DNA from: Asterochloris sp. CNOR1
Taxonomy: Eukaryota; Chlorophyta; Trebouxiophyceae; Trebouxiales; Trebouxiaceae
Assembly: GCA_963969365.1 (NCBI GenBank)
Contig: OZ017757.1
Span: 1,674,001-1,738,000 of the forward strand
Length of the DNA: 64,000 nt
Direction: 5' to 3'
The first letter of the stretch is position 1; each line of letters opens with the position of its first letter. This document shows, one piece after another, positions 3,001 through 61,276 of the stretch. The notes under the pieces were generated by a model, which was given only the letters and a program-made list of their open reading frames with translations, searched no databases and was not told the DNA's origin. Made by a program: the position numbers and the translations under genes.

Positions 3001-6000
3001 CAGCCAGCATGCAGGCGCCCCCAGCGCAGCCAGGCTTGTGGGCTGCCGATGCTGCCCAGGCCACTGCTGGAGGGAGTATACAGGACCCAACACAGCAGCC
3101 AGCCAGCGAGCAGGAGTTGCCCGCGTCGGCTGGTGATGCTCCGCAGGCTGCTCCGTGCAGCAGCCTGCAGGACCCGGCCAACAGACAGAAGCAGCCTGCA
3201 CAGAAACGCGACCGCAGGGTTCCGGCAGCCCGTCGCAAGAGGCCAGATCTCCAAGCCAACGGCTTCATTGCCCAAGAGAGGAAGGCTGCCATGGTGGAGG
3301 AGGTTCAGGCCGCGTCAGAGGCTGTGAGACAGCAGTGGGAAACGGGCATGGCCGGCGCTGCCAAGGTGTTTGTTGTGATGTGTTACTGTTGCACTTCCGC
3401 ATGCAAGAGCAGGCTGCCTGCGGGGTCTGGGGGAGCAGTGAGAATGCCTCACAGCAGAGAGCTTCCTGGACTCGGCAGGTTGCTAAGGTCTGGAGGTGGA
3501 CGGCAGCTGTGCAGGCTGCCTTGAGGGGTGTAGTGAGTTGTGGGGCACGGCCTTCACGGTCACCCAAGGTGTGTTCTGAGCTATTGCAGGCTGTCAGGCT
3601 CATGAGCAGGCAGCACTGCAGGCATGTGGGTTACACAAGCCAGTGCAGGTTGTGAGCTGCCAGCGCTCAGTGCCAGTAGCTGTGCTATACACAGCAGCTC
3701 AAAACATGGTATACCACGAAGCAGAGGACTTGTGGGTGGGCAATTGCTGCTGCTTGGCTCTTGAGGGTTCGAGCCAGCTCCCATTCATGCGTGGCCCCTA
3801 CCGCTGCAGGTGCTGCGCAGCGTGCTGGCTGCCACCAGCATGAGACACTCCAAGGGTCGCAACCGTGTGCATCGGCACAAGTTTGGTGGGCGTGTGGCAG
3901 GCGGGGAACAGATTGGGCCACAAGCGTCCATGGACCTTGAGGGTAAGCGCCAGTCGGTTCCTCTTGCAGGCCACACAGTCCTGTATCCTGTCATAGCGCG
4001 CACAGACCCGTATTTTGTTGGTGCCTCCGCTGCACCTGACTGCTGCCATCTAGCTGTGAGGTTTGAGCCCCGTTATGTCCACAGTCTCACTCATGCATGC
4101 CCCGATCTGATTTTGTTGAACTGAGCGCAGGGGCAAGCTCTAGCACAAGCCCGCCGTGCTGTGATGTTGCAGAGTGCTGCCAGTGAAGCTTGGGCTGCCT
4201 TCAGCACCAATGAGCAGCTCCTGGGGCTGGCCCATGAACCTCCCCGAGTGGTGTGCACTTGACCGAGGGTGCAGTCAGGGACAGCATCTGCAGCCATGCC
4301 CATCAGACTGAGCAGGCAGATTGCTGCCTTCAGGGTGCAGGCGCGATGGGCTGGGCAGGAGGAATACATTCGTCAGGGTTTGTTGGTTGCTCAATCGAGC
4401 AGCCAGGTTGCTACCTGCATGTGATGGGCAACGCAGCACCCAAGGCAGAGAGATGGTTGCCTGCAGTGGACGCGATGGAGCAGGCAGCCGTGCGCTGCAT
4501 GGCGCAAGCGTAACCGCAGCCCGTGGTCTGTGGTGTCAGAGTGCTACCTGCATTGCGGCAGCTGCCCGTGCAGATGAGCAGGCAGGGCAAGGTGTCAATG
4601 GAGGCCCCAGCATCATGCTTGTGGATATTTGAACCCTGACGCTGGCACTGCCTGCAGCGGGGGACTCCGCAGAGGAGGCAGGTGTCCAGGCAGGGGAGCG
4701 TGCCAGGGGAAGCACGGCCGTGGCAGAGGGGAGCGAAGGCTCCCATCGCAGAGCAGCCCCTGCCCATGGGGGCTTTGCAACCTCTGAGGATGACGCAGCC
4801 CCTGAGGACATGGTAGCTCCTGGGGAGACTGTGGTGGCCTTCCGCCTGCACCGCTTTGGCTAGTGAGTGGGTCTGGCAACAGATGAGGGTTCCCAGCAGC
4901 AGGCTGCGGGATGTCTTCCTTTGCATGGTCCCCGCAGCAGAGGCAGTGTGGCTGGGACAGGTGCATCCTGTGCAGTTTGCAAATGATGCTTTTGTGGCTT
5001 GGTGAGTGGTTGTCTGCAGCCCATCTCCGCCCCTCAGGACATGATGGGCCCTGCGAAGACTGGTGCTCTCCATTTGCACCGCTTTGGCTAGTGGGTGCTC
5101 CCTGCAGCAGCCATTGAATCCCTTTGCCGGGTGCTTTGAGCTGGCAGTGTAGCTGCAATGAGTGCATGCTGTGCAATGGCCAGTAGGGATTGGTGCGTCA
5201 GCTCCCTGCAAGAGACAATAGGGCCTTCCCTGGTGATGCGGCTTTGTAAGTGTGGGGTTAGAGCAGCAAAGCTATCCCTGCTGAAGAGGACATGAGGGTC
5301 TTAAGGCGACTGTGGTCATTCTCTGGCCGCGCCTTGGGGCATAGTTTGCGAGTGGCAGACTGCAGCCATTGCCTGGGACGCTGCAGCAGGCGTCAAAACC
5401 TGCGGTGGCTTGCAGCCAGGCAGCTCTCATCATGCATGTGAATGACAGGCTGTACACCAGCCTGGGAAGAACCCAGAGCTTTCCTGCTGGAGCAGTCCCC
5501 AGATGTCTGTGCTAATGGCTGTGCTCCTCTGCGTTGCAGCTGGGTGATCTGCCCAAGCGGCACTGCTCAAAGCCACTTGCTGGCTGTGCAGGCCCCAACA
5601 CCTGCGCTTGCCCACACAGCTGCCCTGACTCCTGCAGTTTGCCGTGCCCCGCAGTCAGGTGCAGCATAGAGGCACCCATGCTTTGGTGCCATCTGCTGGC
5701 AGACCTCGGCCTGACCAGTGCATCTTGTCCTGCCCTGAAGCCAGGAACCGAGAGGGGGCTTGGCAGGAGGCGACCTGCGGAGGACCCTCCTCCCACAGCT
5801 GTCCTGACTCCTTCATGTTTCCCCGCCATGCAGCCAGGTGCAGCCAGTGATGGAGGTGGCCATGCTCGGGAGCCACCTGCTGAGCGACCTGCGGGACTGC
5901 CTGTGCTGCGAGGCGGACGCTAACATGTATGTGGCCGGGCGCGACAAGCCGTCTGCATTCTTCTACATTGAGGCAAGTCCTGAGGGCAGGCTCATGCTAT

Positions 6001-59800: not shown

Positions 59801-61276
59801 CGCTCATGGGCCTCGTCCAGCACGATCACGGAGTACTGGCGCAACAAGGGGTCATCTAGGCACTCCCGCAGCAGCGTGCCATCTGCACTGCAGGCAGCAG
59901 CTTGAGCTGTGAACAAGTCATGCACTGGCAGGCGGCCGCTGGGTTTGCGGGGGCACTTGCGCAGCAGCCTGCCACCTGCAGCAAGCGGCAGCTCGAGCAG
60001 TGAGCTGGCAAGGGGGCACGAATGTGCGGGCACCCCTGCAGCAGCATGCCATCTGCACTGTAAGCGGCAGCTTGGGCCATCTACAGGCTGGCGGCCACTA
60101 GATCTGCAGGCCCTTGTGCAGCAGCGCGCCACCTGAAACTGCAGGTGGCTGTCTGGACAGTGTTGTGGGACACACGAGCAGGCAGACAGCAGCATCTGGT
60201 GCAAGATGCGTGCATATACAGTCCGTGAGGACAGCATGACATGCCCAAGCAGGCTGCAAAGCAAACATGGGCTGCAACCTGGGCTCCCTCTGTGTGGCTG
60301 TCTGCACATCAGCTCCCCGGTGCCCTCAGCCTTTTGAGTCTGCCCAGGACAGCCATTGCTCACAGAAGCCACTACGTTAGGGCCCCACTCGTGAATCACA
60401 TCATGCAAGTGCGGTTGCTGGCCCTCTCCTGAGACAGGGCATGCATCAAGTGCCACAGCCTGCCGCCTGAACTTGCAGAGCTTGAAGCCTGGGCACATCT
60501 GCTAGTCGTTTTTATGCAAGAAACCACCTGTGAGTCAGTCAGATGTGTGATCACCTGCTGGCACACCAGCACCAGGGCGCTGATTGCAGAGGCCTGCTAC
60601 GTGAGTGATGTCCATAGGGTCCTCAGGGCCTGGGCCTCTGAAGCATTGAGTGCATGGTGCGCCCACCTGTGAGGTACATGATGCGGGTGCGGCTGCTGGC
60701 TCGCTCCTCAAAGCGCACTGCATAACCCACTTCCTGCCCCAGCTCGCACCCACGCTCCTCAGCAACTCGGCGAGCCACGCTCACAGCTGCTACTCGTCGG
60801 GGTTGGGTGACGCCAATTCTACCGTTGTCTGCAAAGCCTGCCTCTTCCAGAATCTGCAGGAGTCTGCTCACTGGGCTGGCATACTGAAGGGAAGCACGCC
60901 ATTACAAATGCACACAAGCTCAGCAGCAGTAGTCTACCTGCAAGCACCGTGGCTCAGGTGCTTGAGACATGAGCCAGGACAGCATCCTCTGTTGTGGCAT
61001 GCAGCATCTCCACTGTGCTCGCACCTGGGAAATCTGTGTTGTTTTGCCTGAGCCCGTCTCGCCGATTACCACAGTGACAGGATTCGCCCTCACAGCCTCC
61101 AGGATGCGGTCGGCATGGACCCTGATGGGCAGCAGGACTGGGACTGCCCCCATCCTGGTCTTAGTTTGCAAGAAGGGGCCACTCACTGAACTCTCCGTCG
61201 GCAACTGTTCTGTTACCACCATATGCTGGATCACATGAAACCAATCAACTGTATTGACCTGGTCAAAACCATACAT
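53889..61276 (-). CDS. DEAH-box ATP-dependent RNA helicase, DHX40-like
   Basis: All helicase motifs can be read. Motif I is [13 protein letters not shown] in the first exon (61276-61025). Ia is [18 protein letters not shown] (about 60860-60680) and II is [15 protein letters not shown] (about 59840). III is [19 protein letters not shown] (about 59280-59215). IV is the GDILLFLTG block (about 58580). V is [19 protein letters not shown] (about 57860) and VI is [13 protein letters not shown] (about 57420). Then come the winged-helix and ratchet parts ([20 protein letters not shown], about 56500) and an OB-fold end ([10 protein letters not shown] ... [20 protein letters not shown], about 54640-54470). 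The last exon, [20 protein letters not shown] with [14 protein letters not shown], resembles the C-terminus of DHX40 more than spliceosomal Prp22 or Prp43. Start codons at 61276 or, in frame, 61153 are both possible. The role is RNA remodelling; the DHX40 assignment is from remembered sequence. Confidence 0.88.
57219..57275. repeat. Tandem ~19-bp units in a helicase intron
   Basis: CCAAGGCTGGCAGCCAGCC occurs twice, followed by a third, diverged unit. Confidence 0.8.
59313..59403 (-). repeat. Decayed copy of the helicase motif III exon start
   Basis: On the minus strand this intron stretch reads [14 protein letters not shown] ... MVTKSAP in frame, next to the real [18 protein letters not shown] at 59282-59228. 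The nucleotide match runs through the acceptor side and most of the motif. The copy has an inserted run in the middle. Confidence 0.8.
59388..59456. repeat. Tandem GCGCAGCTG-AGGCAGCT units
   Basis: Four imperfect 17-25 bp units of GAGCGCAGCTGAGGCAGCTT type lie just beyond the motif III copy. Confidence 0.8.
59856..60142 (-). repeat. Array of four copies of the exon start coding ADGTLLREC
   Basis: The real junction ([13 protein letters not shown], about 59890-59850) is followed upstream by three decayed copies at about 59945-59985 ([12 protein letters not shown]), 60022-60065 ([10 protein letters not shown]) and 60105-60140, with a period of about 75-90 bp. Each copy keeps the GCGCAGCAG/GCCATCTGC-type core on the plus strand. 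Confidence 0.85.

Follow-up and report, generated by a model that had tools for sequence, protein, structure and literature searches.

The window considered here is a stretch of 64,000 nucleotides from the green alga Asterochloris sp. CNOR1 (C12:1674001-1738000; the assembly has 21 contigs and 56.4 Mb). Its 13 gene models include genes resembling SNAPC3, BFN, CRN, a glycosyltransferase, GT8, GT32, the kinase ATG1 and a DEAH helicase, and in each of these an exon edge recurs, together with its splice site and in decayed form, in or beside a neighboring intron. These copies, denoted junction echoes in the following, are confirmed as real and extend beyond the window. In a genome sample of 344 kb (the window, 200 kb of contig C1 and 40 kb each of contigs C5 and C8), 77 of 932 splice junctions match their own intron at a score of at least 16, compared with 4/932 for the inverted own intron and 11/9,299 for swapped introns of matched length.

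The organism is photosynthetic, as shown by its genome's 31 matches to the family of chlorophyll a/b-binding proteins. Gene models were produced by a self-training gene finder that was written for this analysis and is blind to repeats; it yielded 75 genes with 598 introns in the 344 kb and converged on the signals CAG|GTGAG for donors and TGCAG|G for acceptors. The acceptor consensus is very strong in the genome sample, with T, G and C preceding the AG at frequencies of 0.89, 0.93 and 0.97, which is above the strength usual in plants. Parts of five of the 13 window models were scanned against Pfam, and four of the five products were recognized (kinase/ATG1-like, helicase, SNAPC3 and GT32-like), with no match for the scanned part of the glycosyltransferase-like product. 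The assignment of models to the eight genes named in the initial annotation is putative, following position and sequence, and Pfam backs some of these names only.

In the junction test, 45 exon and 25 intron bases were aligned with the remainder of the same intron, omitting its first 60 bases. Only introns of at least 130 bp whose flanking exons measure at least 30 nt were used, leaving 466 of the 598. Inverted own introns and swapped length-matched introns served as junction controls, and composition was controlled by swapped introns, distant same-strand DNA and inverted DNA. Within the window, 20 of 164 junctions are positive (13 acceptors and 7 donors, in 9 of the 11 genes with tested introns), compared with 0/164 inverted and 0/1,640 swapped pairs. 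This agrees with the initial annotation, which had claimed decayed copies in at least fifteen introns or flanks of at least eight genes, and each of the eight genes named there shows at least one match at a score of 18 or more. The window is somewhat richer in echoes than the remaining sample, where 57 of 768 junctions are positive (42/538 in C1, 7/126 in C5, with two inverted matches, and 8/104 in C8). Altogether, 35 of the 63 genes with tested introns contain an echo. Among the first 411 introns, donors reach the threshold of 16 in 8.0% of cases (swapped 0.17% of 4,102, inverted 0.24% of 411) and acceptors in 8.5% (swapped 0.17% of 4,098, inverted 0.73% of 411).

The existence of decayed near-junction copies that carry an exon edge and the adjoining donor or acceptor is thus strongly supported in the genome sample, their same-strand orientation is borne out by the inverted control, and composition is controlled by the swapped pairs. 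The offsets, claimed as 70-340 bp, range from 71 to 363 bp among the 65 echoes with an exon part (5-95% range 83-276), the lower limit being partly imposed by the skipping of the first 60 intron bases. One to three copies per site had been described; a second copy (score at least 15) accompanies 10 of the 65 echoes, a count given without null comparison, and one helicase acceptor is preceded by three decayed copies. Echo-bearing introns have the greater median length (418.5 versus 261 bp), though long introns also give more target.

The echo loci in the window, compiled from introns of at least 110 bp, are as follows; the names BFN-like, CRN-like, glycosyltransferase-like and GT8-like are those of the initial annotation.

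4798-5110, plus strand: SNAPC3, donor echo 5029-5110 of 4798-4882 (exon end 4862), score 35, offset 231.
5615-5890, plus strand: SNAPC3, acceptor echo 5615-5706 of 5794-5890 (exon start 5834), score 42, offset 179.
6242-6489, plus strand: SNAPC3, acceptor echo 6242-6332 of 6406-6489 (exon start 6424), score 34, offset 164.
7567-7740, plus strand: SNAPC3, acceptor echo 7567-7637 of 7669-7740 (exon start 7699), score 35, offset 102.
9568-9690, minus strand: BFN-like gene, weak acceptor echo 9653-9690 of 9568-9604, score 18-19.
10478-10712, minus strand: BFN-like gene, donor echo 10478-10530 of 10653-10712, score 25, offset 175.
14614-14798, minus strand: CRN-like gene, donor echo 14614-14698 of 14717-14798 (exon 14772-15144), score 22.
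23628-23869, plus strand: glycosyltransferase-like gene, exon segment present three times (23628-23677, 23750-23794, 23825-23869), offsets 193 and 75, scores 22 and 37.
23988-24108, plus strand: glycosyltransferase-like gene, donor echo 24075-24108 of 23988-24021 (exon end 23997), score 24.
27944-28087, minus strand: acceptor-side echo 28047-28087 of the exon start 27944-27984, score 23, offset 103.
34160-34276, minus strand: GT8-like gene, acceptor echo 34238-34276 of 34160-34197 (exon 34013-34173), score 24.
42470-42792, plus strand: GT32-like gene, acceptor echo 42470-42539 of 42723-42792 (exon start 42780), score 20, and a second, weaker copy (score 16).
47789-48142, plus strand: ATG1-like kinase gene (Pfam Pkinase), short acceptor echo 47789-47809 of 48122-48142, score 19.
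51007-51176, plus strand: ATG1-like gene, donor echo 51135-51176 of 51007-51048 (exon end 51029), score 28, offset 128.
54653-54866, minus strand: DEAH helicase, acceptor echo 54797-54866 of 54653-54722, score 22.
59800-60172, minus strand: DEAH helicase, one acceptor and exon start present four times, the real exon starting at 59882 and the decayed copies at about 59975, 60052 and 60132.
60384-60708, minus strand: DEAH helicase, donor echo 60384-60430 of 60662-60708 (exon 60667-60853), score 25, offset 278.

The SNAPC3 exon starting at 7699 falls within the Pfam SNAPC3 match (PF12251, E 3.3e-40), and the GT32-like product matches Gly_transf_sug (PF04488). The CRN-like and BFN-like genes are merged in one gene model here. 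In the glycosyltransferase-like gene, the segments 23750-23794 and 23825-23869 are modelled in one exon, 75 bp apart and in frame. In the ATG1-like gene, the exon end 49675-49730 recurs at 49865-49920, and the model takes this copy as an additional exon (49795-49917), which may be a gene-finder error or else a copy turning into an exon. The four helicase acceptors are spaced by 80, 77 and 93 bp, and alternate copies appear by eye more similar to each other, as if nested duplications of first about 80-90 bp and then about 170 bp had occurred.

Junction echoes are accompanied by a general excess of local same-strand similarity. When 120-base tiles of the window were compared with the next 500 bases, 82 of 1,057 matched directly at a score of at least 22 (15 inverted, 20 distant and 29 distant inverted). 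With stricter gap costs and a score of at least 20, the first 304 kb contain 152 distinct direct pairs compared with 13 inverted, 3 distant and 1 distant inverted, with offsets of 50-260 bp in 120 of the 152; at a score of at least 18, the 344 kb contain 235 local direct pairs compared with 27 inverted and 12 distant. A BLAST self-comparison gave hardly any pairs, or none, with offsets below 80-100 bp, a range in which the search with stricter gap costs does show pairs; the gap is attributed to BLAST dropping matches close to its own diagonal. The duplications are not confined to introns and occur also in intergenic DNA and inside exons. Pair density is 0.355 per kb in introns (63 pairs in 178 kb) and likewise 0.355 for pairs touching intergenic DNA (18 pairs in 51 kb), an equality that should not be pressed since intergenic pairs fall below the expectation of the shift test described below. 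Of 25 repeats within the same exon, 19 have an offset that is a multiple of three, compared with 33/94 exon-intron and 19/63 intron-intron pairs; such multiples of three, present in exons only, are predicted by selection on the reading frame, or by protein repeats.

The density of matches falls with distance from the junction. With 70-base tiles and a score of at least 16 (here and in the tile tests below, only tiles with 300 bases of intron target were used), 15% of the tiles across a junction match, 13% of those flush with its edge and 8% of the first intron tiles. Deeper intron tiles reach 4.4%, 3.5% and 0.7%, and exon tiles 4.3% at 0-70 nt and 0.5% at 70-140 nt from the junction. As tiles overlap, these rates are not independent.

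The decay of the copies was analyzed in 84 echoes with a score of at least 18, 65 of them with at least 10 exon bases (introns below 110 bp again excluded). Mismatches are nearly equally frequent at the three codon positions (148/753, 152/749 and 180/756, i.e. 0.197, 0.203 and 0.238), and purifying selection at the protein level was not found in these echoes. Aligned splice dinucleotides had been named as a mark of support, and they are retained in 30 of 40 echoes; other dinucleotides are retained in 1,905 of 3,067 cases (62%), so that a protection of the splice sites is not clear. Because codon positions differ little and splice dinucleotides are not clearly protected, the copies look like neutral debris that decays much like non-coding DNA.

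These observations are best explained, with a probability of roughly 0.75, by the assumption that the echoes are left over from ordinary local duplications of short segments, in tandem or close to it, which occur genome-wide with detected offsets of mostly 50-300 bp. Such duplications would arise throughout the genome. An insertion inside a coding exon would mostly be purged by selection unless the frame is kept, whereas a duplication crossing a junction would be tolerated: a proper splice site persists, the spare exon edge ends up in the intron, and the intron lengthens by one unit per event. The spare copy would then decay neutrally, with selection preserving the real exon edge, and for that reason events crossing a junction should be recognizable longer than those confined to an intron. 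The mutational step would most likely be fill-in or copying during the repair of staggered breaks, or else replication slippage.

Several results weigh against this explanation. Intergenic pairs stay under their expectation in the shift test (17 versus 26.4 +- 4.6). Among 28 pairs with an identity of at least 88%, the two copies are separated by no more than 5 bp in just 4, so that for most pairs the data do not establish strict head-to-tail duplication; some of the others resemble three-copy arrays by their spacing. If only one copy decays, the exon part of an echo should be clearly better preserved than its intron part, which is not shown by the identities of 0.787 and 0.776, local alignment favoring a similar identity in both. 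The junctions themselves are richer than expected in the tile tests, with 40/330 junction tiles compared with 11/554 deep-intron tiles, and 43/379 compared with 13/594 in a repeat, i.e. five to six fold. A neutral simulation with a constrained exon and a constant rate predicts ratios of 1.44-1.47 or 1.57-1.60 only. A constant rate also predicts more than 95% identity in 16-17% of the junction copies, and 0 of 40 reach it (0/43 in the repeat, compared with 2 of 13 deep-intron matches). A skew toward old duplications clears the junction problem and is itself unexplained.

It is also to be weighed whether duplications form or persist preferentially at splice junctions, e.g. through clustered breaks or helpful spare splice sites. 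The excess ranges from 1.6 to 6 fold depending on the method. In the shift test, performed on 228 of the 235 pairs after exclusion of offsets of 700 bp or more, 51 exon-intron pairs cross a junction compared with 31.8 +- 4.9 expected, and none of 1,000 shifts is as high; without C5, which was omitted in one version because it is rich in exon-exon pairs, 46 are found compared with 24.3. The first intron tiles beside a junction are raised as well, and one fit yields a junction preference of 1.9-2.5 fold (objective -36.1). A fit that assumes mostly old duplications, without such a preference, is about as good (-35.4, -35.5), however, and intron-only pairs lie at the shift expectation (63 versus 64.9). 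The remaining classes give 33 versus 43.6 (exon-only exon-intron), 59 versus 51.5 (exon-exon) and 5 versus 9.8 (exon-intergenic). Earlier gene models gave a weaker junction excess (33 versus 22.5 at a score of at least 20 and 18 versus 13.9 at 24), and the lack of clear protection of splice dinucleotides speaks against such a preference. According to the simulation, recognizability would account for about 1.5 fold at a constant rate, or for the whole excess if most duplications are old. Recognizability may thus explain most or all of the excess, with a true preference of about twofold being possible. Preferential formation or persistence at junctions is on balance considered unlikely. The stronger claim that junctions are duplication hot spots, about twice as active as intron interiors, and that introns grow chiefly inward from their ends is held to be similarly doubtful; if true, exon edges would represent a dated fossil record of intron growth with a past burst.

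The initial annotation had connected the copies with two processes, intron growth, with which the data agree, and intron birth by duplication of AGGT-containing segments, which is unsupported. Birth by duplication puts the end of the upstream exon at the far end of the intron and the start of the downstream exon at its beginning. This register (agreement at 36 or more of 60 positions between exon ends and opposite intron ends, at an offset equal to intron length) was found in full in 0 of 532 introns, those below 60 bp or with an exon below 40 nt being excluded from the 598. One-sided matches number 2 and 2 among the 532, compared with 0 and 1 for swapped pairs, and an earlier test with a score of at least 16 gave 0 and 2 of 411. 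The copies moreover bear the same junction type as their neighbor. Birth of introns from an exonic AGGT segment is a known mechanism (PMC3443670; PMC4974935), and donors and acceptors of this genome have CAG|G in common. It was nevertheless rejected as highly improbable, being contradicted for most of the introns studied here, and growth of existing introns is favored because the birth register is absent from all 532. Introners, mobile intron-creating elements that leave similar introns in different genes (PMC9860276), are considered unlikely, as judged indirectly from the rarity of matches in swapped junction-intron pairs (11/9,299) and in distant DNA.

An origin in composition, erroneous gene models or misassembly has very little to recommend it. 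The models do contain errors: in the helicase, a decayed copy is taken as an exon, and the homology to DHX8 sets in about 28 residues further on, with the real exon, whereas the match has no counterpart of the 28 residues from the nearest copy. Comparable errors probably affect the ATG1-like gene (49795-49917) and the glycosyltransferase-like gene. Such errors are expected to mask echoes more often than to generate them. Matches are almost absent from the swapped, inverted and distant controls, and Pfam (four of five genes scanned) and DHX8 (the helicase exon) back the models concerned. Assembly error was rejected, as the identity of the copies, mostly 65-90%, is too low and too graded for its residue. 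A function as alternative or decoy exons or splice sites is scarcely credible and was rejected, since the recognizable translation of several helicase copies and the 30 of 40 retained splice dinucleotides are set against near-equal mismatches at the three codon positions, a general dinucleotide retention of 62% and exon-intron offsets evenly spread modulo three.

Related duplications are described for other eukaryotes. A survey of the human genome counted 824 repair-mediated duplications, closely linked and up to 619 bp long, some of them including splice sites; 295 of their acceptor sites lie in introns, few take along parts of exons, and their intensity decreased over primate evolution (Pace et al., 2009; PMC2671141). 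The echoes resemble these vertebrate events in being closely linked, often intronic and sometimes provided with exon parts. They differ in frequency, with 4 partial exon/intron donors in 824 events there and 77 of 932 junctions in the alga, numbers obtained by non-comparable search methods. In the potato RdRp gene, one tandem duplication crossing a junction also comprises an intron end and an exon start. It produced a new intron, whereas in the alga existing introns appear only to grow, in numerous events (PMC4974935). An internal tandem duplication is likewise the raw material of AGGT-based intron birth, which a review of 2012 treats as a genuine route of intron gain; birth register and offset are absent here (PMC3443670). 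In mouse and human cells, short tandem duplications result from fill-in at breaks with 3' overhangs (Schimmel et al., 2021; PMC8355091), which offers a biochemically tested route that is a candidate for the alga. Titles and abstract openings among the matches listed contain no report of junction echoes in green algae.

The value of the echoes would lie in their legibility. To our knowledge, intron lengthening without transposons is poorly documented. Tandemly duplicated AGGT segments as a source of new introns are reportedly treated by Gao and Lynch (2009). As one of the two copies is a conserved exon edge, events crossing a junction could be recognized after intron-only duplications have faded, and a legible event is present at about 1 in 12 junctions, or about 1 in 9 among longer introns (tile test). 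The approach requires a single annotated genome and is applicable to all eukaryotes. New here is how densely the junctions of a single genome carry such events, and that exon edges are used as a fossil record.

Some minor observations concern repeats of other kinds. The window ends in a large repeat array (63270-64000) with a period of 270 bp, 2.1 copies and 89% matches, continuing into repeats of 78, 39 and 21 bp. The top-scoring echo (junction 63009-63774, score 86) belongs to this array, and the first exon modelled within it is doubtful. The stretch C5:800001-840000 (L022-L025) contributes 28 of the 56 listed exon-exon repeat pairs from one eighth of the sequence. Tandem repeats with a period of at least 40 bp form 12 rows in the 344 kb, 7 of them with a period of 69-78 bp:

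22907-23051 of the window; C1:569054-569186; C1:678216-678359; and others: tandem repeats with a 69-78 bp period.

This clustering is possibly due to chance or to a preferred duplication length.

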